The notes below the pieces were generated by a model, which was not told the DNA's origin, did not search any database, and saw only the letters and a list, made by a program, of their open reading frames with translations. A stretch of 64,000 bases of DNA from Herpetosiphon geysericola. Lineage in GTDB: Bacteria > Chloroflexota > Chloroflexia > Chloroflexales > Herpetosiphonaceae. Made by a program: the position numbers and the translations under genes. Below, piece by piece: positions 22,382 to 36,936 of this stretch. Location of the stretch: assembly GCF_001306135.1 (NCBI RefSeq), contig NZ_LGKP01000011.1:186001-250000 (forward strand), given 5' to 3'. Numbering within the stretch: position 1 is the first letter of the stretch; the number at the start of each line of letters is the position of its first letter.

Positions 22382-23872
22382 TCATAATTTTGCTATGTTC
22401 TCTGCTCTTTTTTGCTCTCCGTTCAATAGTTTTGCCAATAAATTTGGCTTCAAGGCTTGTTCAACGTGGTCGGCGAGTCGCTCGAAGGGATCGCTTGCTG
22501 GCTGCCCGGCTTGCGCTTGCCAGCCGAGGCTGCCTAACCATGCATAGCGAAAAGCACGGTTGGCAAAAATTCCATGCAAATAACAGCCCCAAATCTTACC
22601 ATCAGCCCGCATACAGCCATCGGCGTGGTTGGCTCCAGCCACTTCAATCGTTAATGCTGGCTGATCGGCGAGGAGTTCGCTGCGACCTAAGTGAATTTCA
22701 TAGCCTGTCAGCGGGCAATCCTTGGCCCATGGCAAGTGGCTGGTGGCCTGCACTTGGCGGGTTTGTTTTTCGGCGCTAAACACGGTTGTGATGGGCAATA
22801 AGCCTAAGCCTCCCATCGTGCCGCCGTTCCCCTCAAGCGCCTGTGGATCATCAATCTGCTGGCCGAGCAGCTGGTAGCCACCGCAAATGCCGACGATTGG
22901 CCCTTGAAATTGTTGAATTGGCTGATCGAAGCCCTGCTCGCTAAGCCATTGGCGAGCGGCAAGCGTGTGCTTGGTGCCAGGCAAAATTAACGCTTGGCAA
23001 TCGGCTAATTCATGCGGCTGCTTGATATAGCGTACTGCCACGCCATGCTCCTGCGCCAACGGATCAAAATCGTCGAAGTTGGCAATTGCAGGTAGTTGAA
23101 TGACCCCAATTGTTAATCCCGCCGTGGTAGCCATTTGCGCAGGCCGTTCTAAGGCCACCGCATCTTCTTCGGGCAGGCCAAGCTGCGGCAACCACGGCAC
23201 AACGCCCAACACTGGCTTGTTACTGCGCTGTTCGAGTATTGCAATGCCATCGGTAAATAAAGCTGGATCGCCGCGAAACCGATTGACAATCAGTCCTGCG
23301 ATTAATTGGCGTTCCGCTGGCTCAAGCAACATAAGCGTGCCCAGCATGGCCGCAAAAATCCCACCAACATCAATATCGCCAACCAACAAGGTTTGGGCTT
23401 GAGCATAGGTTGCGACCCGCATATTGGTGATGTCGTGGGCTTTGAGATTTAGTTCAACTGGGCTGCCAGCGCCTTCAGCAATCACCAAATCATATTCTTG
23501 GCGCAAACTATCGAGGCTGCTGCTAACAATATCCCAAAGCATTTGCTTGCGCTGCCAATAATCGATTGCATCAAGGGTGCGCCAAGGTCGGCCTTGCACA
23601 ATAATTTGGCTGCGGCGCTGGCCTTCTGGCTTGATCAAAATCGGATTCATCTGCACGCTGGGCGCAAGCTTGGCTGCTGCTGCTTGAACGGCAATGCTGC
23701 GAGCAATTTCTTCGCCATTGGCTGTGACGGCAGCATTGTTGCTCATATTTTGGGCTTTAAAAGGCGCAACCCGAATACCACGGCGGGCGGCGATGCGACA
23801 CAACGCACTAACCAAGGTACTTTTGCCAACCGATGAAGCGGTTCCAACAACCATCAAAACTGGGGCGAGCAT
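22382..23872 (-). CDS. cobQ: Cobyric acid synthase CobQ
   Basis: 496 residues. It amidates four side chains of adenosylcobyrinate diamide to give adenosylcobyric acid, using glutamine and ATP. The N-terminal dethiobiotin-synthetase-like P-loop is TASSVGKST, followed by [10 protein letters not shown]. The C-terminal class I glutamine amidotransferase has the nucleophile Cys in [10 protein letters not shown] and His in CYLHGIFAN. The ATG at 23872 (GGAG in front) is preferred to an upstream TTG. Its first 19 bases overlap the end of cobC. The last dozen residues ([13 protein letters not shown]) are encoded by intergenic repeat sequence, so the natural end may have been replaced. Confidence 0.93.
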
Positions 23873-24999
23873 AAGGTTCTCCAAGCTGCAAGCAAACGCT
23901 GATTTTGGTGTGGCTGGCGTGGGGCAATCCGAATGAAGCTGGGCAAGCCAAACGAGCTACAATCGCGCACCAAACAGGCGTGCTGCAATAACGCGCTGCG
24001 GGTTTGGGCAGCGTTCTGCACTTCCACCAAGAAAAATGGCAAGCAACTTGGCAAAACCCGCAGCCCGAGTTGGCCTAATTCAACCCGCAGTTGATCGCTC
24101 CATGTCCACCATTGGCCCAGATTTTGCGCGAGCCACGTTGGATTTGCCATAATTGCCAAGCCCGCTGCCTGCGCCAAACTATTAACGCTCCACTGTGGCT
24201 GCCAGTGCCGCAAGGCAGTGATGATGTTTGGCTCGGCCACGACATAGCCCAAGCGCAAGCCCGCCAAGGCATAGCTTTTGGTCAATGAGTAGAGGTAAAT
24301 TGTGTAGTGGTTGGGGGCTGGGGACTGGGGGCTGGATAATGATTTCTCAACCCCAATCGCCGATTCCCAATCTCCAATCTCCGTTTCCCGATCCCCAATC
24401 CCCGATCCCCGATCCCCAACCACCAAATCGGCATAGGCCAAATCGAGCACCAAATAGCCCTGCACTGCGGCACAGGCTGCTTGGAGTCGCTCAATTGCTT
24501 GGGCTGGCAAATAGCTGCCAGTTGGATTATTGGGGTTGCACAGCCAAACCAAGCGTGGACGATATTGGGCAATTAATCGGCAGCAGGCTACAACATCAAC
24601 CTGAAAGTCAGTTTCAGCGCTTGCTTGATAGCGAATGAGCTGAGCGCCGACCAAACTACTTGCATAGGCATATTCGCCAAAGGTTGGCTCGATCACCACA
24701 ACATAATCGTTGGCTTGCAGCAACGCACGGGCAATTAAGTGAATTAACTCATTGCTGCCATTGCCAATCAGCAACTGTGCTGGCTCGCAAGCGTGATGGT
24801 TGGCAAGTGCTGCCCGCAACGCCAAACATTGGCGATCAGGATAATGGGCCAAATCAACGTTTGCGAGCGTTGCGCGAATAAAATTTGGCGTACCAAGCGG
24901 ATTAACATTGCTGCTGAAATCGTAGATTTGGCTTGGCGCAAGCCCGTGTTGTTGCAATTCTGCATAATCGATTGCGCCATGAATTGGCTGTTGCATCAT
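23854..24999 (-). CDS. cobC: CobC/CobD-type threonine-phosphate decarboxylase-like aminotransferase
   Basis: 381 residues. It is a fold-type I PLP protein of the histidinol-phosphate aminotransferase group. In cobalamin synthesis the group supplies the aminopropanol phosphate arm by decarboxylating threonine phosphate. Visible features: [11 protein letters not shown] at the start, [24 protein letters not shown] and the PLP lysine in [16 protein letters not shown]. The ATG at 24999 overlaps the cobU stop as ATGA; a GTG at 25008 is possible. Between YADL and YSLTK there is an extra in-frame stretch of about 38 residues encoded by GATCGGGG-type repeat (24307-24420). It falls close to the active-site lysine, so activity needs testing. 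Confidence 0.9.
24307..24420 (-). repeat. Repeat array inserted in frame inside cobC
   Basis: The segment is built of GGGGATCGGGGATTGG-type words, the same family seen between genes at 9120, 10810, 14010 and 60990. It adds a Gly/Asp/Glu/Ser/Pro-rich loop to CobC without breaking the frame. Confidence 0.85.
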
Positions 25000-25541
25000 T
25001 TGGCCCACGCTGGCTGCAATTGGCGAATTTCGATTGGCATGCCTGCGACAACCAAATAAACCTCGTTGGCCGCCGCCGCAATTTGCTGGTTGGCACGGCC
25101 AATCAGGTCGCGATAGACGCGGCCCAAGGCATAGGCGGGCACAATGCCCATGCCAACTTCATTGGTCACAACAACTAAATGTAAATCGCGGGCTTGCTGA
25201 GCGGCTAACATTGCGGCAATTTCAGTTTGAATCACAGGTTCGGGCTGGGCTTCGTTGGCTAACAACAGGTTGCTCACCAATAAGGTCAGACAATCGAGCA
25301 AGACCACGCTGCCACTTGGCAGTTGGCCTAATGCTTGGCTGGCAGCAAGCGGCGCTTCGATAGTTTGCCAATGGCTAGGCCGTTGAGCTTGGTGTAGGCC
25401 AATCCGCTGCTGCATTTCGCTATCGCCAGCTTGGGCTGTAGCCAAATAATACACGTGGGCTGCGTGCTGGCTGGCATATTGCTCGGCGCGCCAACTTTTG
25501 CCGCTACGTGCGCCGCCAGTAAATAAAACTAAACGAGCCAT
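24996..25541 (-). CDS. cobU: Adenosylcobinamide kinase / adenosylcobinamide-phosphate guanylyltransferase
   Basis: 181 residues, standard for CobU/CobP. It phosphorylates adenosylcobinamide and then forms GDP-cobinamide for nucleotide-loop assembly. It starts MARLVLFTGGARSGKS, with the P-loop at 9-16. The family segments VVLLDCLTLLVSNLL and VTNEVGMGIVPAYALGRVYRDLIGRANQ are present. AAGGA precedes the ATG. The start overlaps the end of btuD by 13 bases and its TGA overlaps the cobC ATG, so translation of btuD-cobU-cobC-cobQ is probably coupled. Confidence 0.95.
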   Translation of the reverse strand: MARLVLFTGGARSGKSWRAEQYASQHAAHVYYLATAQAGDSEMQQRIGLHQAQRPSHWQTIEAPLAASQALGQLPSGSVVLLDCLTLLVSNLLLANEAQPEPVIQTEIAAMLAAQQARDLHLVVVTNEVGMGIVPAYALGRVYRDLIGRANQQIAAAANEVYLVVAGMPIEIRQLQPAWAK

Positions 25542-26338
25542 GATCGTTCCTTAGGTTGTGGTTGAAGCATCACTAACGGCAGGCCATGGCTGGGATGTTC
25601 GATCAATTGAACTGGCACATCGTAGGCCGCCTCGATCAATTCGCTGCGCAACACGCTGTTTGGCGGGCCAACTGCTTGCAAACGGCCATGAGCCAAGAGT
25701 GCAATCCGGTCGGCGCAAAGGCTGGCTTGATTCAGATCGTGCAAGGTCAAAATCACACAGACCCCATCGCTATGCGCCAGCTCGCTGACCAATTGCATAA
25801 TTTCAAGTTGATATTTTAAATCAAGATGGGCGGTTGGCTCATCGAGCAACAAGATGCTTGGTTGCTGGGCCAAGGCGCGAGCGATAATCACCCGCCGTTG
25901 TTCGCCGCCCGAAAGCTCGGCCAAGCTCTGGCGTCGATACTGGGCCAAATTAAAGCGCTCAAGTAATTGTTCAACGATTGCGCGATCGGCTTTGCTCATC
26001 GGCAAGAGCCAACCGCGATGCGGTGTGCGCCCAAGCAGCAGCATTTGCTCAACCGTCAGGTCGCTATTGAGGCCATGGTTTTGGGGTGCAAAGGCAATTT
26101 GTTGGGCTGCCAAGCGCTGCTTAATCTGCCACAATGGCTGATTATTCAGCCAAATTTTGCCCAGTTGCGGCTGTTGCAGCCGTGCCAAACAGCGTAATAA
26201 CGTGCTTTTGCCAGCGCCATTTGGCCCAAGCAAGGCCAGCACTTCGCCTTGGGCAGCATCTAAATCAAGCTGGGCAAAAACCTCACGCGCCCCATAACGA
26301 CAACTCAGTTGTTCAACCTTGATGATTGGGTTTGACAT
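25529..26338 (-). CDS. btuD: Corrinoid ABC transporter ATP-binding protein
   Basis: 269 residues. Walker A LLGPNGAGKST, the Q-loop region AFAPQNHGLN, signature LSGGEQRR, Walker B ILLLDEPTAHLD and H-loop LTLHDLN. It is of the FecE/BtuD type that works with BtuC-like permeases. The ATG at 26338 begins right before the conserved IIKVEQLSCRYG strand. The longer frame upstream only translates CACGAA-type repeat and is rejected. No strong ribosome site is seen. Placement with cobU, cobC and cobQ and close to btuC/btuF supports B12 or cobinamide uptake rather than iron. Confidence 0.9.
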   Translation of the reverse strand: MSNPIIKVEQLSCRYGAREVFAQLDLDAAQGEVLALLGPNGAGKSTLLRCLARLQQPQLGKIWLNNQPLWQIKQRLAAQQIAFAPQNHGLNSDLTVEQMLLLGRTPHRGWLLPMSKADRAIVEQLLERFNLAQYRRQSLAELSGGEQRRVIIARALAQQPSILLLDEPTAHLDLKYQLEIMQLVSELAHSDGVCVILTLHDLNQASLCADRIALLAHGRLQAVGPPNSVLRSELIEAAYDVPVQLIEHPSHGLPLVMLQPQPKERSWLV

Positions 26339-26829
26339 TGATTGCGGCTTTCTACGAATTTGATCCACGAAGCGCACGAAGGACACGAAGATTAATTTTT
26401 TGGCCACGAATTGCCCGAATTGCACGAATGATTCTTTTTTAGCCACAGATTGCACAGATTATGATGATTTGATTCCTACTCTCCCATAGCCTAGAGCCAA
26501 TAGCCATCTTTCTCTGCGCCGCTGCGTTAAGAATTGATCCACGACGCGCGCGAAGGTTAAGTTTTGATCCACGAAGGACACGAAGAGACACGAATGATTA
26601 TTTTTGGCCACAGATTGCCCAGATTGACCCAAATTATTATTCCTTTAGCCAATAGCCATATCTTTTCTGCGCCGCTGCGTTAAGCATTGATCCACGAAGC
26701 GTGCGAAAGACACGAAGATTAATTTTTTGGCCACAGATTGCCCAGATTATGTTGATTATTGGTCTATCTCTCGTGCTGCCTGATCCCTAAACTTCTGATT
26801 TTTGATTTTTGACTTCTGGTTTTCATCCT
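26339..26829. repeat. Mosaic repeats between btuD and btuC
   Basis: 491 bases with no gene. A compound unit appears twice in the same word order (about 26488-26630 and 26640-26752): AGCCAATAGCCAT, TCTGCGCCGCTGCGTTAAG, TTGATCCACGA, then GGCCACAGATTGCCCAGATT. The right end carries CTTCATCCTTCATCC-type words next to the btuC stop. Confidence 0.75.
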
Positions 26830-27861
26830 TCATCCTTCCCCACGTGAGCGCTTGAGCACATACAAAAAGAATGGGCCGCCGAGCATGGCCGTCAAGATGC
26901 CGACTGGTAATTCCAACGGCGCGGCGATGGTGCGGGCGGTTGTGTCGGCCAACACCAGCAGCATCGCCCCAATTAGGCCGCTTGCCGGAATCAAACGGGC
27001 GTGGTTGGCGCCAAACAGCAAGCGGGCAATGTGCGGCGCAATTAGGCCAATAAAGCCGATAATGCCGCCATTGGCGACGGTTGCGGCAGTGGTGATGCTG
27101 GCGGCGGCAATCACGGCGCTCCTACTGCGCCACAGCGATAAGCCTAAACTTTGGGCCACTTCATCGCCACAACTCAGGGCATCGATTCGACGCGCCATCA
27201 GCCATAGCCAAGCAATGCCAAGCATTACAAACGGCAAACTGCTGGCTACATTGTTCCAGCTGCGGCCTGATAACCCACCAAGCAACCAGGCAAAAACTTC
27301 GTACAACGGCTGTTCGTTCATTAATAACAATAATGACACGGTTGCTGAAAGCATCGTGCTGAGCGCTGCTCCTGCTAAGAGCAAGGCAGTGCGCGGGGCT
27401 TGGCCGCCAACTTCGGCAATGCTATACACCACCGCAACCGCCAGCAATGCGCCGATAAAGGCACACAGCGCAATCGCATTAAAACCCAACCATTGCCATT
27501 GCACTTGCAAGACAATCGCTAAGGTTGCGCCCAAGGCCGCGCCTCCAGAGGCACCAATCGAGAACGGATCGGCGAGCGGATTTTGAAACAGCCCTTGGAA
27601 GGCCGCCCCAGCACTGGCCAACCCAGCGCCGATCAGGGCTGCCAGCAGCATGCGTGCCAGCCGAAAATCCCACACGATCGTCACGGCGGTGCTGTTGGTG
27701 CTGGCATGATTGGGTTGAACAATCGCTTGCAGCACCGTACTAGGGCTGAATTTTACTGCCCCAATGCCAAGGCTCACAACCATCATTAATAACAAAAGGC
27801 CAAGCATGCCGCCAAAGGCCAGCAGATCGCGCCAATAGGGCTTGGAGAATAAGCGTGCCAA
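26830..27861 (-). CDS. btuC: Corrinoid ABC transporter permease
   Basis: 343 residues with about ten hydrophobic helices, of the FecCD/BtuC family. Motifs include LRLARMLLAALIGAGLASAGAAFQGLFQNPLADP with the GASGGAALGA that follows, and the cytoplasmic GGIIGFIGLIAPHIARLLFG loop that contacts BtuD (long stretches given here only by their key parts). There is no ATG. A TTG at 27861 is chosen because GAAGGG stands six bases in front, while the TTG at 27867 abuts that site. It follows btuF by about 75 bases and is on the same strand. Confidence 0.88.
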   Translation of the reverse strand: MARLFSKPYWRDLLAFGGMLGLLLLMMVVSLGIGAVKFSPSTVLQAIVQPNHASTNSTAVTIVWDFRLARMLLAALIGAGLASAGAAFQGLFQNPLADPFSIGASGGAALGATLAIVLQVQWQWLGFNAIALCAFIGALLAVAVVYSIAEVGGQAPRTALLLAGAALSTMLSATVSLLLLMNEQPLYEVFAWLLGGLSGRSWNNVASSLPFVMLGIAWLWLMARRIDALSCGDEVAQSLGLSLWRSRSAVIAAASITTAATVANGGIIGFIGLIAPHIARLLFGANHARLIPASGLIGAMLLVLADTTARTIAAPLELPVGILTAMLGGPFFLYVLKRSRGEG

Positions 27862-27886
27862 AACCAACCCTTCAAAACTGAATTAA

Positions 27887-27936: not shown

Positions 27937-29016
27937 TTATTTGAACAATTCTGGATACAAGGCTTGGCTGATCGCTTCTAAGGCAGAGGCCAAACGTGGG
28001 CCTGGGCGCGAAAGAATATCACCATTCAACATAAAGACCTTGCCATCCCTGACAGCTTTGATTTCGCTCCAACCTGGGCGTTGGGCAAGCAGCTCAGCAG
28101 TGAATTTATCGCCGCGTGAGTCAGGCCCAATAATGACCGCTGGTTGGCGATTCAGCACTTCTTCGGCGCTAATTTCTGGATACTCTTCGCTGAGTTCAGC
28201 AAAAATATTGCTCCCGCCTGCAAGCTCAATCAGCTGGCCAATGAAGGTTTGCGGGCCAGCAGTCATCAACGGCTCATCGTACACTTCGTAGAACACGCTC
28301 AATTTATCGGTTGCGGCAAGCGTGCTGGTTTTCGTAGTTACTGCTTCAATTCGTGCTTGCATAGCAGCCACAACTTGAGCTGCTTCAGTAGGATGATTGG
28401 TTGCTTTACCAATCAGATTAATGTTTTCGTAGACTGCCTCAATGGTCTCAGCTTTAATTGCAATCACCGGAATATTGGCTTGGGCAAGGGCATCGATCAC
28501 TGTTTGTTGGCTTTCGTCGCCCGAAAATACCACATCGGGCTTGAGCGCTACAATCGTTTCGAGGCTGATCGATTTGGCCGAAAAGCCGCCAATTTGATCG
28601 ATGCTTTTGGCTGCTTCGGGATAGTTGCAATACTTTGTCACGCCAACCAAAGCATCACCCGCGCCAACCGCAAACAGGATTTCGGTGTTCGATGGCGCTA
28701 ACGAGATGATGCGGCTGGGCGCTGCTTGCAAGGTCACTTCACGGCCAAGGCTATCCTTGATCGTCAAGGGATAGCTGACGCTGCTAGTGCTGCTGACCAC
28801 AGCGGTTGGGCTGATCGTTGTAGTTGGAGTTAATGCGGCGGTTACGCTGACTGCCGTGGTGGTGGTTGGCGCTACGGCGGCACTAGCGGTTGTTGCAGTT
28901 GCTGGCACAGTTGTCGCTGGAATTTGGGTAAGGCTACTTTCGGCAGTGCCACAGGCCACAAGGCTGCTCAACAACAAGAAAACGCTCAAAAATCGGCTAA
29001 ATCGAACCTTGGTCAT
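27937..29016 (-). CDS. btuF: Corrinoid-binding lipoprotein BtuF-like
   Basis: 359 residues. A lipoprotein signal (about 1-22, lipobox LVAC) is followed by a Thr/Ala/Val-rich linker of about 65 residues. The helical-backbone metal-receptor domain has LGREVTLQAAPSRIISLAPSNTEILFAVGAGDALVGVTKYCNYP (only landmarks: SLAPSNTE and GVTKYCNYP), as in BtuF. It should hand corrinoid to BtuC outside the membrane. The linker is typical for surface lipoproteins in this group. Neighbours btuC and cbiB support a corrinoid over an iron-siderophore ligand. Confidence 0.88.
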   Translation of the reverse strand: MTKVRFSRFLSVFLLLSSLVACGTAESSLTQIPATTVPATATTASAAVAPTTTTAVSVTAALTPTTTISPTAVVSSTSSVSYPLTIKDSLGREVTLQAAPSRIISLAPSNTEILFAVGAGDALVGVTKYCNYPEAAKSIDQIGGFSAKSISLETIVALKPDVVFSGDESQQTVIDALAQANIPVIAIKAETIEAVYENINLIGKATNHPTEAAQVVAAMQARIEAVTTKTSTLAATDKLSVFYEVYDEPLMTAGPQTFIGQLIELAGGSNIFAELSEEYPEISAEEVLNRQPAVIIGPDSRGDKFTAELLAQRPGWSEIKAVRDGKVFMLNGDILSRPGPRLASALEAISQALYPELFK

Positions 29017-29114: not shown

Positions 29115-30053
29115 TTAATCACTAATTCTTAGTTTCAGCTCCCCAGTCCCTATGCTCTCTGTTCTCTGTTCTTTCATACTCCCAACAACTAAGCCTGCCA
29201 CAACCAGATAGATTACGCGGCGGGCTAGCTGGCGAGCAGTTTGCATCAGGGCTGGGTCGGGCTGGGTTGGGCCGTCGCCAAGCACATAATGCCCAATTTT
29301 GATCAGCTGGGTATCCAATGCCCCAGCCATGGCCGCCATTGGCCAACCAGCGTTTGGCGAAGCAGTTTTGCCATGATCGCGCCAAGCCACTTGCCATGTT
29401 TGTTGGCGTTGACCATGGGTAACCAACCAAAGCAGGCCTGCCGTCAAGCGCGCCGGAATCAGATTCAGTGCATCATCGCAACGGGCGGCAACTTTGCCGA
29501 GATATTCAAAGCGCTGATTGCGATAGCCCCACATCGCATCGAAGGTATTGCTCATGCGATAGGCCGCCAAGCCCGGCAAGCCTGCTGCCAAATACCAAAA
29601 CAAGGGCGCAATCACGCTATCTGAGAGATTTTCGGCCAGCGATTCAATTGCAGCGGCGGCAACCTCGCTTGAGCTTAGCTCCGCCGTATCGCGACTGACC
29701 AAATGCCAGCTTAATAAGCGCCGCGCTTCAGCCAAATCATCGGCTACCAATGCGGTTTGCACCTCGCCAACTGCCTGATCGAGCGCTCGATAGGCCAACA
29801 AACTTTGGGCAACCAAAGCTTGAGCCAATGGATGTTTGGGAATTCGGGCAGCCAAGCCTGCGCTCAAGCCCAAGCCCGCGCCGAGCCAGATTGCACCCCA
29901 AGCCAAACGCGCCGCATTGTTGTTTGGCGCGAAACGCTCACCCTGCTTGATCCATTTGCCCATCCAGACCACGGGATGGATGTGGTTGGGCAACTCTGGT
30001 AGCAGCGCATCGCAAGCCAAGGCGATTAAAGCACTTAATGCCCGTTTAGCCAT
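29115..30053 (-). CDS. cbiB: Adenosylcobinamide-phosphate synthase CbiB/CobD
   Basis: 312 residues. It is an integral membrane enzyme that attaches aminopropanol phosphate to adenosylcobyric acid. Family landmarks: ALIALACDALLPELPNHIHPVVWMG at the start (key part HPVVWMG), ESLAENLSDSVIAPLFWY and YRMSNTFDAMWGYRN. The ATG at 30053 overlaps the methyltransferase stop (ATGGCTAA) and places the conserved start at residue 1; the longer ORF is less likely. The last 20 or so residues (MKEQRTESIGTGELK and on) are encoded by AGAACAGAGAGCATAG-type repeat, so the C-terminus looks acquired. Confidence 0.9.
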   Translation of the reverse strand: MAKRALSALIALACDALLPELPNHIHPVVWMGKWIKQGERFAPNNNAARLAWGAIWLGAGLGLSAGLAARIPKHPLAQALVAQSLLAYRALDQAVGEVQTALVADDLAEARRLLSWHLVSRDTAELSSSEVAAAAIESLAENLSDSVIAPLFWYLAAGLPGLAAYRMSNTFDAMWGYRNQRFEYLGKVAARCDDALNLIPARLTAGLLWLVTHGQRQQTWQVAWRDHGKTASPNAGWPMAAMAGALDTQLIKIGHYVLGDGPTQPDPALMQTARQLARRVIYLVVAGLVVGSMKEQRTESIGTGELKLRISD

Positions 30054-30810
30054 TGTTTGCTCGCTGGGCGAAAATAAACAGGCCATTGCTGCCATCGCCA
30101 TACGCTCGATTTTGGTCTAAGCGATGCCACGCGCTGACCAAACGCAAGCCAGCATTGCCAAGCAAGCGCTGCAATTCAGGCAAATAATAATGGCGACGGG
30201 TCAATTCGTAGCTCGTGCGCTGGCCTGCATTCAGCATCGTCAAACGATCGGTGCAGGTCATGGCGCTGCGATTAGGAATCACTTCGTATAACTCCAAGCC
30301 TTGTTCAGTTTCAGCCCAGCGTTGGCTAGCTTCAGGCAGCGCAAACGGCCAATCGTTGATGCCGAAAATCAGCCAGCCGTTTGGTTGCAGCAAATTGGCT
30401 AAATGCTGCAAGCTTTGGGCATCGGCGGCCTCGCTGGGGTAGCCACAACAGCTACGGTCGTACAACGAAAAAATCGCATCAAACGGCTGATCGTTAATTT
30501 CGATAAAATCTTGTTGGCGAAATTGGCAGGTTTGGCCGCGTTGCAGAGCAAAGGCTTGGGCCGCTTGCAGCAATTCTGGCGCAATGTCGATGCTCACAAC
30601 ATGCTCAAAGCCCCGTTCTGCCAAGGCCACGCTATGCCGACCCCAGCCGCAACCAATTTCCAAAATGCTGGCGTTTGGCTCAAGCCCAATTTGGCCGAGC
30701 ACAAAATCGAGATCGTACTGGGCGGCAGCATAATCTGCTTGTTGACGTTCGGAGCTGAGCGTGGCAAATTGGCGCGGCGCAAAATAGCGATACCAATCGT
30801 TGTTGTTCAT
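30046..30810 (-). CDS. Class I SAM-dependent methyltransferase in the cobalamin operon
   Basis: 254 residues. Rossmann methyltransferase with motif I LEIGCGWGRHS, an acidic strand-2 end VSIDIAPELL and a post-motif region DAIFSLYDRSC. The ATG overlaps the cobN stop as ATGA, and the end overlaps cbiB, so it is translated within the cob operon. It does not resemble the corrin-ring methylases (CobA, CbiF, CbiH and others), which have a different fold. A small-molecule or corrinoid-related substrate is possible but not shown. Confidence 0.8.
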   Translation of the reverse strand: MNNNDWYRYFAPRQFATLSSERQQADYAAAQYDLDFVLGQIGLEPNASILEIGCGWGRHSVALAERGFEHVVSIDIAPELLQAAQAFALQRGQTCQFRQQDFIEINDQPFDAIFSLYDRSCCGYPSEAADAQSLQHLANLLQPNGWLIFGINDWPFALPEASQRWAETEQGLELYEVIPNRSAMTCTDRLTMLNAGQRTSYELTRRHYYLPELQRLLGNAGLRLVSAWHRLDQNRAYGDGSNGLFIFAQRANNG

Positions 30811-33800
30811 AGCTGACCTCGTTGTTGTAAATTGCTCAAACCCAACGATTGGGCAGCTTTGAGCAGATCGATATCGTGTTGTTCAGGGTCGTGCCATAAA
30901 TCGCGATCGATCGCTTCGAGCAGGCGTTCAGCAATCGCTTGCCAAGCCCAAGGGTTGCTATCGGCAAAAAATTGCTGCATCTCCTCATCGCGCAAATAGT
31001 GCTCAGCAATCGAGTGATACATCCAATCATCAACAACTTGGGCGGTAGCATCGTAACCAAAGAGATAATCGACGGTGGCGGCTAGCTCCAACGCGCCTTT
31101 GTAGCCATGGCGGCGCATGCTTTCGATCCATTTGGGATTGACCACCCGACTGCGAAATACCCGCCGCGCTTCTTCGCGCAGATCGCGGGTTTGCGGGCGT
31201 TGCGGGTTGCTTGAATCGCCAAAGTAGCGGCGTGGGTTGCGTCCAGTCAAAGCGCGAATCGTAGCGATCATGCCGCCGTGATATTGCATGTAGTCGTCGC
31301 TATCAAAAATATCGTGTTCGCGATTATCTTGGTTTTTGGTAGCAATTTGAACTTCACTCAAGGCTGTGCCAAAGGCATTGGCGGCCTCAATCCCATATTC
31401 ATCGCTGGTGTAGGCATAGCCGCCCCAAGCGATGTAGGCTCGGGCAAAATCTGCGTCATCTTGCCAATTTTGGCTATCAATCAAAGGCAAAATGCCTGCG
31501 CCATAACTACCTGGCTTGCAGCCCCAAACCCGATAACGCGCTTGTTGTTGGGCAATTTCAGGCGCTAGCCCAATTTTGATCAGCTGTTCGGTGGCGGCAA
31601 AGGCTTGTTGCCGAGCAAAATTTTGATCAAGTGGTTCGTCAAGTTCAATCACGGTTTGGGCAGCTTGATCCAGCAAACTAACCAAATGCGGGAAGGCATC
31701 GCGAAAGAAGCCGCTAATTCGACACACCACATTAATCCGTGGGCGGCCAAGTTCGGCCAACGGAATCACTGCAACGCCCGTGATGCGGCGATTTTCTGCC
31801 TGCCAGACTGGCCGCACGCCCAACAAGGCCAGCACTTGAGCAATATCATCGCCATACGTGCGCATCGCGCTAGTGCCCCAAATGCTGATGCCAACGCTGC
31901 GTGGGTAGCTACCCTCTTCACGTTGATAGCGCCGAATCAGATCATCGGCCAAGTGTTGGCCAACTTGCCACGCCGCCGCGCTGGGCAACGAGCGCGGATC
32001 AACCGCATAAAAATTACGGCCCGTCGGCAATACATGGGCCATTCCGCGCGTTGGTGCGCCGCTTGGCCCTGCTGGAATGTAGCCGCCATTTAATGCATGC
32101 AGCAAACTGGCAATTTCGGCGCGCGCACTTTCGTGCAAATTGGGAATTAATTGGGTGGCGATAAATTCCAATGGCGCGACCAGCGTTTGATCCCACGCTG
32201 ATGCACTTGGCAACAAGCTCGTTTGCAAGACGGCTAGAATGGCATCAATCTGCCAGTTTTGGTGTTCTAAATTTTGCAAGATTGTTTTGCAATGCTGTTC
32301 GAGCCATGCCGCCACATCGCCGTTGCTGTAGAGGGTTTGTTCGCCTAATTGCAACGGCTGAGCTAAGCGTTCGCCCAAATTGGCTTGCAAAGTATTCCAA
32401 TCCAAGCCATAGAGCTTGCCAACCGCCACGGGTAAACTTGGCACCTCAAGATTGGGCAATTTGGTCAGGTGAAAGAGCAATTCTGGCAGTTGGTCGCCCT
32501 CGGCCAGAGTGCCTAAAATATGCAAGCCATCGCGAATTTGTGCTCCGGTCAGCTCGCACAAATAGCCTTCAATATCTTCGAGCAAGTGAGCAACTTGGCG
32601 ACCTTCCATCTCTGCAAAGGCGGTTGGTGTGCCATCGTCAAGGAACGAGCCATCCCAATCGTGGGTGTGGTCGCCGTGATTGGCCTTGAGAATAAATTGC
32701 AAATCATCACTAAGATTGCTAGTTTGCAGCAGGTTCCAAATTTGGCGCTGCAACAAGGGCAATTTATTGGGGTCGAGTTGCTCAACTTGATAATATTCAT
32801 TGACCAACTGCGCCAATTCGGCCAACTGGCCATAGGCTCCCGCGCTGGTCATCGGTGGAGTCATATGGTCGATAATTACGGCGTGGCTGCGGCGTTTGGC
32901 CTGATTGCCCTCGCCTGGATCGTTGATAATAAACGGATAAATCACTGGCAAATCAGCAATTAATGCATCGGGGAAGCACTCGCGACTAAGGCCAACGCTC
33001 TTGCCCGGTAGCCATTCGAGCGTGCCGTGTTTGCCCATATGCACCAAGGCATCGGCCTGCCAACCATCGCGCAGCCAGCGGTAGAGCGCATAATAGCTGT
33101 GCGGCGGCGGCAAATCGGGCATGTGGTAAATTGCGTTGGGGTCCATGCCATAGCCACGCGGCGGCTGCAAAGCCACAAACACATTGCCAAACTCTAAGCC
33201 CGCCAAAGCTAAACCATGCTCGCTCAAATAGGCTGTGCCTGGCGCTTCGCCCCATTGTTTGATCATGCTGGCTTGTAAATTGGCGGGCAATTCTGCAAAC
33301 CATTGTTGATATTGATCGACTGGCACATGCACCGCTTGATTTAATTGCTGCTCGGTCAGCCAAGTTTCATCATACGAACAGCGATCGATCAAATCAAGCA
33401 ACAATTGGTCGCTGCTTGCTGGCAAATTGCCAACCTGATAGCCCTCTGCTTGCATGGCGTGGAGCAAGGTCAATAATGAGGCTGGGGCATCCAAGCCAAC
33501 CGCGTTGCCAACTCGCGAGGCCTTGGCGCTGCTGTTGGTAAACACAAAAGCGATCCGTTTTTCGGCATTTGGTTTGTGGCGCAAATTGACTAAGCGCCGC
33601 GTAATCCCCACCACCCGCTCAACCCGTTCGTGATCTGGCACGTAGCGCACAATACCAGAATTGGGGTCTTGCTCCTTGAACGAGATTGGCACGGTGATAA
33701 TCCGGCCATCAAATTCAGGAATCGCCACATTAATTGCCGTATCCAACGAGCTTAATCCACGGCCTGCTCGTTGCCATTGCTCACGCGAGCGGCCACTAGC

Positions 33801-35114
33801 AATCGCTTGGATAATTGGCACATTCAGCTGTTGCAGCATATCGATTTCCCAGCCTGCGAGGGTTGGGCCTTCGGTATTGACATTGCCCAAAGCAAACGAC
33901 AAACTGCAAATCAAGGCATCGATCGGCCCTTCAGCTTGCAAACACTCTAAGGCAGCGGGCAGATTGTTGGTTCCGCCTTCCTTGAGCGAGTGGCTATAAA
34001 CCGCCCGTGGTTGCATGCCCTGGGCATCGATTGCCTGACAAATTGCATCAACAAACTCGGTATTGCCGCTGAGCATATGCGCTCGATAGAACAGCACGCC
34101 CACAGTTGGCTTGGTGGGCTGAACACTGGTGTGGCATTGCGAGCCAGTGCAGCCTTCGCAGCGATTGAGCGCTGGCGTGTAGCTGCCATGACGTGGTAAC
34201 TCTCGCGGCGCGTCGTAGCCCCAACCTGTCAGCAATAAGTGGTCGCTCAAGCAAGCCAAAGCATTGACCACATTGTCCAAGCCGCCTTGCATAAAATAGC
34301 TGCTGATCAGGTGCGCCAGCGGCACGCCAACATTTGAAAGTGCCATCAACTCTGGGTCAAGCGCCTCGAACCCAGGCAAATACAGCACAAAACCATTGGT
34401 TTGTTGTGTCCATTGTTGCAAGCGCTCGATGCCATGCTCAAAGCCACGGCTCCCAGAAATTAAGCGCACAACCACAATTTCTGCCTGTGGTAACAACCGA
34501 TCAAGCAAACTATCAAGCGCGTTTTGATCTTCGGCCTCGCCCACGTTGGCGGTTTGGAGGCTAGTAAAATCGCTTGGCAATTGGCGACGTGCCTGCTCAA
34601 TCAGCAGAATATCGGTATCAGCTTGAGTCAAAAATACGATGCCATTGCCAAGGCTGGGCTGGCTGGCTGGCAAGGCTGGCACTTGGCTGATTGCGGCTGG
34701 TGCTTGGCCATCCCATTTGAAGCCATTAAAAACATGCGGCTTGAGCTTGGCTGGCGCAGGCAGTACTTGATCGGCCTGAATCATGGCTTCGATGTAGTCG
34801 TAGAGCGCCACAACCAACTCTGGCTGGTTAAGCGAATGAAACCAAATCGGCTGGCCATCGAACATCAACATTGCCACGTTGGCCAATGGGCATGGCCCCA
34901 AACAGCCACCCATATTCAGGTGCACAAGGTTACGTAGTTTGCGGCTTTCCCATTCGTGCTGATGAATTTCGGGCCAAACCGGGGCAAAGCCACGTTCGGT
35001 AATCCCGCAGCAGCAGCCATGAGCGCAGATAAACAACATGCCGCGTTTATAGCCAGCGTTGACCATGCGCCCATCGATGCGCTCGACCATATTGCGTTGC
35101 AAACGTTCAGTCAT
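30807..35114 (-). CDS. cobN: Cobaltochelatase subunit CobN with N-terminal ferredoxin-like domain
   Basis: 1435 residues, longer than typical CobN. Residues about 25-110 form a thioredoxin-like [2Fe-2S] ferredoxin domain: Cys30, Cys34-36, Cys71 and Cys75 (FICAHGCCCG and GGCLGPCPL). The rest, from about 330 on, is the CobN/BchH chelatase body, with landmarks KHGTLEWLPGKSVGLS, NDPGEGNQAKRRSHA, PTGRNFYAVDPRSLPS and RVNVV-type segments. It inserts cobalt into hydrogenobyrinate diamide with ATPase partners (CobS/CobT or ChlI/D type), none of which is in the window. Its ATG overlaps the cobO TAA by one base. Confidence 0.93.
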   Translation of the reverse strand: MTERLQRNMVERIDGRMVNAGYKRGMLFICAHGCCCGITERGFAPVWPEIHQHEWESRKLRNLVHLNMGGCLGPCPLANVAMLMFDGQPIWFHSLNQPELVVALYDYIEAMIQADQVLPAPAKLKPHVFNGFKWDGQAPAAISQVPALPASQPSLGNGIVFLTQADTDILLIEQARRQLPSDFTSLQTANVGEAEDQNALDSLLDRLLPQAEIVVVRLISGSRGFEHGIERLQQWTQQTNGFVLYLPGFEALDPELMALSNVGVPLAHLISSYFMQGGLDNVVNALACLSDHLLLTGWGYDAPRELPRHGSYTPALNRCEGCTGSQCHTSVQPTKPTVGVLFYRAHMLSGNTEFVDAICQAIDAQGMQPRAVYSHSLKEGGTNNLPAALECLQAEGPIDALICSLSFALGNVNTEGPTLAGWEIDMLQQLNVPIIQAIASGRSREQWQRAGRGLSSLDTAINVAIPEFDGRIITVPISFKEQDPNSGIVRYVPDHERVERVVGITRRLVNLRHKPNAEKRIAFVFTNSSAKASRVGNAVGLDAPASLLTLLHAMQAEGYQVGNLPASSDQLLLDLIDRCSYDETWLTEQQLNQAVHVPVDQYQQWFAELPANLQASMIKQWGEAPGTAYLSEHGLALAGLEFGNVFVALQPPRGYGMDPNAIYHMPDLPPPHSYYALYRWLRDGWQADALVHMGKHGTLEWLPGKSVGLSRECFPDALIADLPVIYPFIINDPGEGNQAKRRSHAVIIDHMTPPMTSAGAYGQLAELAQLVNEYYQVEQLDPNKLPLLQRQIWNLLQTSNLSDDLQFILKANHGDHTHDWDGSFLDDGTPTAFAEMEGRQVAHLLEDIEGYLCELTGAQIRDGLHILGTLAEGDQLPELLFHLTKLPNLEVPSLPVAVGKLYGLDWNTLQANLGERLAQPLQLGEQTLYSNGDVAAWLEQHCKTILQNLEHQNWQIDAILAVLQTSLLPSASAWDQTLVAPLEFIATQLIPNLHESARAEIASLLHALNGGYIPAGPSGAPTRGMAHVLPTGRNFYAVDPRSLPSAAAWQVGQHLADDLIRRYQREEGSYPRSVGISIWGTSAMRTYGDDIAQVLALLGVRPVWQAENRRITGVAVIPLAELGRPRINVVCRISGFFRDAFPHLVSLLDQAAQTVIELDEPLDQNFARQQAFAATEQLIKIGLAPEIAQQQARYRVWGCKPGSYGAGILPLIDSQNWQDDADFARAYIAWGGYAYTSDEYGIEAANAFGTALSEVQIATKNQDNREHDIFDSDDYMQYHGGMIATIRALTGRNPRRYFGDSSNPQRPQTRDLREEARRVFRSRVVNPKWIESMRRHGYKGALELAATVDYLFGYDATAQVVDDWMYHSIAEHYLRDEEMQQFFADSNPWAWQAIAERLLEAIDRDLWHDPEQHDIDLLKAAQSLGLSNLQQRGQL

Positions 35115-36145
35115 TAGAAGTCAATCCCGATCTGGGCACGAATGCCTTGGGTTGTAAACGGATGTTTGATCTCGCGCATCTCGGTCACGAGGTCGGCGTG
35201 CTCAATCAGGGCGGCTGGGGCATCGCGGCCCGTAATAATCACATGCAGCAATTCGGGCTTGTTGGCCGCCAACCAAGCCACAACCTCGTTGACATCAAGC
35301 CAACCAAAGGCCAACACATAGGTAAATTCATCGAGAATGACGATCTGATATTGATTCGAGCTAATCGCAGTTTTGGCCAGTTCCCAGCCATGCAAGGCTT
35401 TGGCTTTGGTCGTATCAAGATCTTTCGATGTCCAAGTAAAGCCATCGCCAGTGCCACCAAACTCAATCTCCATCTTGGCGGCTGCCCGCGATTCGCCAAA
35501 CTTGGCATTTTCGTGTTTGAGAAATTGAATCACGCGCACCTTGAGATCGCGACCCCACGCGCGGGTCATCACGCCCAAAGCAGCCGAGGTTTTGCCCTTG
35601 CCATTGCCTGTATTGACAATCACCAAGCCTTTTTTGCCCTTGCGCAATTTGCGCACTTGCTCGCGATAGCGCTGTTTTTCCTCGGTCGAATGCAGTTGGG
35701 TGCCAGCAACAACGATTGGCTCCAATTGCTCAACTGCATCATCGTGTTGCAATTCAATTGGATTAAATTCTTGATCGCCACGCACTGCCGGAGCGTATTT
35801 TGGCTCTTGGCCCGCTGGATACAGCCGATGAAATATCGCTGCTTCAACTGGCTCGCCATTGATCAGATGCTCTTGAACGATTTGTTCAACTAATTCTTCA
35901 TCAAGCTGGTGATACCAAATGCCTTCGGGATAGACCACCGCAATCGGGCCGCGCTGGCAGACGCCCAAACAGCTGACGGTCGAGCATTTAACCCGTTCAG
36001 GATTGCGCAATTTGCGCCGATCGCCGAGTTGTTCAAGCGTGTGTTGGGCCAACGCCGCGCCATCAGCATCGCCGTTGCATTGATCACCAGTGCAAATAAA
36101 TAAATGGCGGCCATAGGCACGCATTGTCAGTGGGGAATCGCTCAT
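35114..36145 (-). CDS. cobO: Corrinoid adenosyltransferase CobO with N-terminal ferredoxin-like domain
   Basis: 343 residues, about 150 more than usual CobO/BtuR. Residues 10-105 are a thioredoxin-like [2Fe-2S] ferredoxin domain with Cys18, Cys23, Cys54, Cys59 and Cys63 (FICTGDQC and [10 protein letters not shown]). A linker follows, then CobO proper with P-loop GNGKGKTS (180-187), [27 protein letters not shown] and the C-terminal EMREIKHPF. It adenosylates Co(I) corrinoids with ATP. The ATG at 36145 (GGAG in front) is chosen because the upstream frame reads through the terminator hairpin. It is first in the operon, behind the riboswitch. Confidence 0.93.
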
Positions 36146-36186: not shown

Positions 36187-36217
36187 GAAAAAACCTCTTC
36201 GGCTCATGCCAAAGAGG
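36187..36217 (-). terminator. Riboswitch-controlled terminator before cobO
   Basis: On the minus strand, CCTCTTTGGC-ATGA-GCCGAAGAGG is a 10-bp stem with one G-U pair, followed by six T. It lies between the B12 riboswitch and the cobO start, so ligand binding probably stops transcription here. Confidence 0.85.
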
Positions 36218-36405: not shown

Positions 36406-36439
36406 CAAACAAACTTGTAAATTGCAGTCGTGATTATAC

Positions 36440-36936
36440 GGGCAACCCCTAGTTAAAGTCAAAAGGCCAATGAAAGGATGAAGGATGAAGGATGAGGGAT
36501 GAAAGGCCAAGTCAGAAGTCAGAAGGCAGAAATCAAAAGTCAAAATGCAGCGGCACAGAGAACTTTGGCTATGGGCTGTTGGCTTTGGGCTAGCAAGAAG
36601 ATAATCATAAAAATCTGTGGAATCTGTGGCTAAAAACGTTCTTCGTGTGCTTCGTGGATCAATTGCTTAACGCAGAGGAGCAGAGAAAAAGAAAGTATGC
36701 GGGATGAAAGCAAAAGTCAAAAGTCAAAAGTCAGAAAGCAAAAATATTTAATGCAGCGGCGCAGAGCGATGAAAGGATGAAGGATGAAAATGTTAACCGC
36801 GAAGAGCGCGAAGGACACGAAGTTACATTGGATGAATGTCTGAATTGCGTTCAAATCCTATAGAATTCAGAACCCAGCATTCGTGCGCTTCGTGTCCTTC
36901 GTGGTTACAAATAACTAATCGACTGACCCCTCGTTC
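36440..36936. repeat. Mosaic repeats upstream of the cobalamin operon
   Basis: About 500 bases with no gene. Words include AAAGGATGAAGGATGAAGG (about 36472-36503), GTCAGAAGTCAGAAGGCAG (about 36510-36532), GCAGCGGCGCAGAG (about 36546, 36752), AATCTGTGGAATCTGTGGC (about 36612-36630), CTTCGTGTGCTTCGTGG (about 36641-36657) and AAAGTCAAAAGTCAAAAGTC (about 36714-36733). A promoter for the riboswitch transcript should be near 36410-36450. Confidence 0.7.

Follow-up and report, generated by a model that had tools for sequence, protein, structure and literature searches.

CobO-type corrinoid adenosyltransferases need Co(I), and the known suppliers are CobR, flavodoxin and free or reduced flavin (PMC7242693, PMC2982820). 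Beyond flavodoxin in Salmonella, CobR in Brucella and free flavin, the reductant that provides these enzymes with Co(I) from Co(II) corrinoids is poorly settled. The PduS-PduO and CobR-CobO pairs share one task, in which corrinoid cobalt is reduced to Co(I) and trapped by adenosylation. We analyzed a stretch of 64,000 nucleotides of the Herpetosiphon geysericola genome (contig NZ_LGKP01000011.1, positions 186,001 to 250,000; here called the window), in which one uninterrupted reading frame encodes a ferredoxin, a linker and a complete CobO (Table 1). Our preferred reading, to which we assign a probability of about 0.6, is that the product is an adenosyltransferase of corrinoid salvage with an attached electron donor, which would reduce Co(II) to Co(I) in cis.

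TABLE 1. Features of the fusion gene and the surrounding operon, with positions counted in the window.
Feature	Position	Strand	Remarks
Promoter-like site TTGACT-18-TATAAT	36433..36462	(-)	11/12 match
Cobalamin riboswitch RF00174	36282..36422	(-)	51.3 bits
Intrinsic-terminator-like hairpin	36194..36217	(-)	between riboswitch and ATG
Ferredoxin-CobO fusion gene	35114..36145	(-)	343 aa; ATG at 36145; stop overlaps cobN start (TAATG)
Thioredoxin-like [2Fe-2S] ferredoxin domain	35822..36118	(-)	residues 10-108; ligands C18, C23, C59, C63; C54 extra
Linker	35639..35821	(-)	residues 109-169; partly disordered (residues 120-150 pLDDT <50)
CobO/CobA ATP:corrinoid adenosyltransferase domain	35117..35638	(-)	residues 170-343; Walker A GNGKGKT; GFTW
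CobN, cobaltochelatase large subunit	30807..35114	(-)	1435 aa; profile matches
Probable N-terminal thioredoxin-ferredoxin-like domain of CobN	34779..35045	(-)	C30, C34-36, C71, C75
SAM-dependent class I methyltransferase	30046..30810	(-)	same operon, between CobN and CbiB
CbiB/CobD adenosylcobinamide-phosphate synthase	29115..30101	(-)	profile match
BtuF-like substrate-binding protein, B12 ABC transporter	27937..29016	(-)	read from sequence; homologues adjoin BtuC elsewhere
BtuC-like permease	26830..27867	(-)	read from sequence; homologues in related loci
BtuD-like ATPase	25529..26455	(-)	read from sequence; homologues in related loci
CobU cobinamide kinase/guanylyltransferase	24996..25541	(-)	profile match
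Class I aminotransferase fold (PF00155)	23854..25008	(-)	family by profile
CobQ/CbiP cobyric acid synthase	22382..23884	(-)	profile match

The C-terminal part of the protein matched PF02572 with 205 bits (cut-off 25.7) and TIGR00708 with 189 bits (cut-off 167.75), and its matches in the PDB were CobA structures (4hut, 1g5r). Alignment with Salmonella CobA showed that the P-loop and the GFTW motif are conserved; the latter holds the Phe and Trp residues creating four-coordinate Co(II) in the Salmonella enzyme. This part is a complete domain predicted to act as a corrinoid adenosyltransferase. For the N-terminal part, the score with PF01257 (2Fe-2S_thioredx) was 25.5 bits, barely above the cut-off of 24.8, and that with the NCBIfam model fdxn_Clost was 62 bits (E 6e-17), which is under the equivalog cut-off of 150 bits. 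The isolated domain matched the thioredoxin-like [2Fe-2S] ferredoxin of Aquifex (PDB 1f37) with an E-value of 6.6e-16. DUF1636 was discarded as the family of this domain, its match being weak and under the cut-off. The first-pass annotation had proposed a CobO preceded by a thioredoxin-like ferredoxin domain, and these profile searches bore out both halves of that assignment. The fused domain is a predicted binder of a [2Fe-2S] cluster, and we infer the presence of the cluster itself. In the AlphaFold2 model of the whole protein, both folds were present and joined by the disordered segment, and Foldseek matched CobA and, separately, the Aquifex ferredoxin (1f37, E 7.5e-8). Because the linker is disordered, the model does not fix the placement of the ferredoxin relative to CobO or that of the cluster relative to the corrin site (pTM 0.48, linker pLDDT <50).

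Residues C18, C23, C59 and C63 form the canonical CX4C...CX3C ligand pattern, and a comparison of 92 homologous ferredoxin domains revealed both cysteine pairs in every one, so that the loss of cysteines in relatives, for which we checked, did not occur. Columns 18, 59 and 63 were invariant; column 23 was Cys in 87 of the 92 sequences, the remaining ones placing the second cysteine at a different spacing. In one fusion protein (G322), in which ferredoxin and linker are shorter, the first pair is CX2C. The first-pass annotation had also counted C54 in the ferredoxin spacing; the other four cysteines were correctly placed, whereas C54 is Cys in only six of the 92 domains, five of them from fused proteins. 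Of the 17 fused proteins, 15 have this cysteine, which closely precedes the second cluster pair. A role as fifth ligand was rejected, since C54 is unconserved outside the fused lineage; judged by the alignment, this residue marks that lineage and is no standard ligand.

The fusion gene is preceded by a promoter-like site and a cobalamin riboswitch, and the terminator-like hairpin between the latter and the start codon is likely the expression platform of the riboswitch. Related operons have the order BtuF-BtuC-BtuD-[Fd-CobO]-[Fd-CobN], with CbiB downstream in several of them, and a methyltransferase homologue of 61% identity is likewise located between CobN and CbiB in another locus (L153). 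The aminotransferase is, from its place in the operon, probably a threonine-phosphate decarboxylase of the CobC/CobD type. A genome search found no CbiC and only three TP_methylases, the two markers by which we judged the absence of the de novo corrin-ring pathway. Since CbiC is absent, the operon of the window most likely serves corrinoid salvage. In agreement with this, H. aurantiacus was independently described to be without B12 biosynthetic genes and probably to rely on extracellular B12 (PMC3766115). The presence of the late cobaltochelatase CobN in a salvage operon of a genome without CbiC is a puzzle; in haloarchaea, a salvage role was suggested for a cobaltochelatase (PMC8305020). ChlI/ChlD-like proteins, possible partners of CobN, are encoded elsewhere in the genome, which additionally encodes a PduO-type adenosyltransferase.

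The fusion is real and not confined to this strain. In total, we count 17 fused genes, which are distributed over Herpetosiphon, other Chloroflexales, Caldilineaceae and Anaerolineales. A search of the phylum detected the entire fusion in each of the six genomes belonging to the genus and in two others (G014, G214). In the five congeneric genomes it was intact with 95-97% identity, which argues against a sequencing artefact. A scan of named genomes (80 loci), in which Herpetosiphon giganteus (L049) was the closest named record, showed it also in an Anaerolineales and a Caldilineaceae MAG (L050, L051), and a search at the order level yielded 14 of 82 genomes, adding G318, G313, G316, G315, G330, G311 and G322. 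The reading frame of the G311 copy is broken, possibly through an error of assembly. Outside the genus, identity was 61-75% for CobO, 40-57% for the ferredoxin and 21-44% for the linker; that the fusion persists in 17 genes despite a diverging linker is as expected of a tether. Other long CobO reading frames (L036-L045) were dismissed as fusions as they are without the ferredoxin part and their extra length looks like upstream read-through. The same applies to an ORF of 467 amino acids (L088), which showed no Pfam family and probably has a spurious N-terminal extension. None of the plasmid records searched covers the fusion.

Many Chloroflexales possess a CobO without fused ferredoxin, and a ferredoxin in cis is therefore dispensable for CobO. 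In the ferredoxin tree, which is based on 115 columns and has many unresolved forks, the six fused domains required one change in 200 of 200 bootstrap trees, the branch support being modest (66/91). In the CobO tree, stand-alone CobOs of Chloroflexales nested among the fused ones, and well-supported branches forced at least two changes. A single fusion event as judged from CobO alone was rejected, since the fused CobOs form no single clade. Both trees would fit an ancient fusion followed by losses, and domain exchange is a possible alternative history.

The same ferredoxin lineage occurs outside CobO. In other Chloroflexales, a separate ferredoxin of about 110 amino acids with about 50% identity adjoins btuC in btuFCD operons, and in complete loci its gene sits between btuF and btuC. 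A BtuD-like ATPase of G311 carries the ferredoxin at its C-terminus (L158:1990-3144 (-)); its gene is directly followed by Fd-CobO and then by the start of Fd-CobN, so that in one operon BtuD, CobO and probably CobN have such a domain. In Proteobacteria, a homologue is encoded 5′ of cobN and a ChlID-type gene, and in one of these loci (L067) it is preceded by a protein read as CbtA. The separate ferredoxin in btuFCD operons, the BtuD fusion of G311 and the proteobacterial homologue before cobN constitute a Rosetta-stone pattern. Riboswitches were found at 14 further ferredoxin loci (L053, L034, L035, L135, L051, L060 and eight proteobacterial ones) and upstream of the separate CobO of L055; the search reported none in L050, L031, L032, L033 and L057, some of which are incomplete loci. 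For 67 of the 92 ferredoxin domains compared, which are more distant homologues, no recognised cob or btu gene was nearby, and the wider ferredoxin family is therefore not devoted to B12. The H. geysericola genome encodes another ferredoxin-like protein of 95 amino acids (L048:1456-1743 (-), G000:C23), adjoining a gene for an MBL-fold hydrolase-like protein.

A second and divergent ferredoxin-like domain is probably part of CobN. Within its residues ~24-112, the cysteines C30, C34-36, C71 and C75 (CX3CCC...CX3C) were invariant in four sequences. This N-terminus gave no match in Pfam and an E-value of 0.013 in NCBIfam, whereas comparison with the ferredoxin profile by hhalign gave a probability of 69% (E 4.5e-5). 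In its structural model, strands and helices followed each other as in ferredoxins, with moderate confidence, and Foldseek matches in the PDB were mainly thioredoxin-like ferredoxins, the best with an E-value of 3e-3 and none below 1e-3. L050, L051 and several Chloroflexales have retained the domain, which is missing from the CobN of G316.

In the relay that we propose, imported corrinoid would be bound in CobO as Co(II) together with ATP. The flexibly tethered [2Fe-2S] ferredoxin would be recharged by a cellular reductase and pass one electron to the corrin, giving Co(I), which would attack ATP; the resulting adenosyl-corrinoid would then be used by CobQ, CbiB and CobU. Of this scheme, we infer the reductase and the electron path; the neighbourhood of the fusion gene showed no recognisable ferredoxin reductase. 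The genomic context, namely the riboswitch, the salvage operon, the btuFCD-associated ferredoxin and the Chloroflexota-wide fusion, points to an electron-donating role in cis. The sole Flavodoxin_1 match of the genome lies inside an open frame of 1084 amino acids (L160, G000:C11:35796-36194), perhaps a fusion of the P450-reductase type, which fits the absence of a small flavodoxin of the Flavodoxin_1 family. The reducing power of a [2Fe-2S] centre is only marginal for the Co(II)/Co(I) couple, and the relay would depend on an upward shift of that potential by CobO. As a tentative and rather doubtful extension, the ferredoxin lineage on BtuD, CobO and CobN might form an electron-coupled hand-over chain for corrinoid reduction from import to activation.

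The ferredoxin might also act at an earlier step, reducing or stripping a Co(III) corrinoid, e.g., a cyano- or aquo-corrinoid, as it leaves BtuFCD, with CobO fused for hand-over and a reduced flavin giving the electron for Co(I). The location of the separate ferredoxin beside btuC, away from cobO, would agree with this, as would the BtuD-ferredoxin fusion of a single genome. The recurrent fusion partner, however, is CobO, whose chemistry requires a low-potential electron, whereas general reductants readily suffice for the step from Co(III) to Co(II), and we regard this explanation as unlikely. We consider it clearly less probable that the ferredoxin serves CobN, pairing with the ferredoxin-like domain of the latter for a redox reaction during cobalt insertion or the handling of the corrin. 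This could account for the position of cobN directly 3′ of the fusion in most loci, for the proteobacterial homologue preceding cobN and for the probable ferredoxin-like domain of CobN itself; in G214, however, the fusion is flanked by btuD and cbiB, and the 19-kb stretch showed no cobN, which links the ferredoxin with CobO rather than with CobN. Moreover, no redox step is known in cobalt insertion by CobN-type chelatases.

Slightly more improbable still is a cluster that functions as a sensor of oxygen or iron or as a structural element, e.g., for dimer stabilisation, instead of carrying electrons to the corrin. Known thioredoxin-like ferredoxins form dimers, and the occurrence of C54, next to the cluster motif, follows that of the fused form, both of which would be in accord with such a function. 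On the other hand, the nearest relatives by sequence and fold (1f37, HydB, NuoE) are electron carriers or electron-transfer domains, and corrinoid operons also contain this domain in unfused form.

A search of mainly open-access literature gave no description of a CobO-ferredoxin fusion, an absence that is weak evidence given this coverage. Electron transfer in cis is a plausible mechanism for the fusion protein. If true, a natural donor in cis would directly reveal which electron carrier is used and provide a single-protein system for measuring the transfer from Co(II) to Co(I). One ferredoxin lineage is repeatedly linked to BtuFCD, CobO and CobN, which also points to a redox partner of B12 salvage for which we found no description. 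With the CobA/CobO/BtuR enzymes (PF02572; PDB 1g5t, 1g64, 4hut), the protein of the window has the catalytic domain, the Walker A motif and GFTW in common, but known members receive electrons from a separate flavodoxin, CobR or free flavin, whereas here a ferredoxin is fused to the N-terminus. Fold and four-cysteine motif are shared with the thioredoxin-like ferredoxins (PF01257; Aquifex Fd 1f37, Azotobacter FeSI 5abr, the NuoE/HydB domains); unlike these, the domain is fused to CobO in a B12 operon, has a CX4C first pair and the extra C54, and scores under the equivalog cut-offs of the named ferredoxins. PduS and CobR are separate flavoproteins, PduS with [4Fe-4S] centres, whereas the fusion protein would place a [2Fe-2S] cluster in cis and has no flavin domain.
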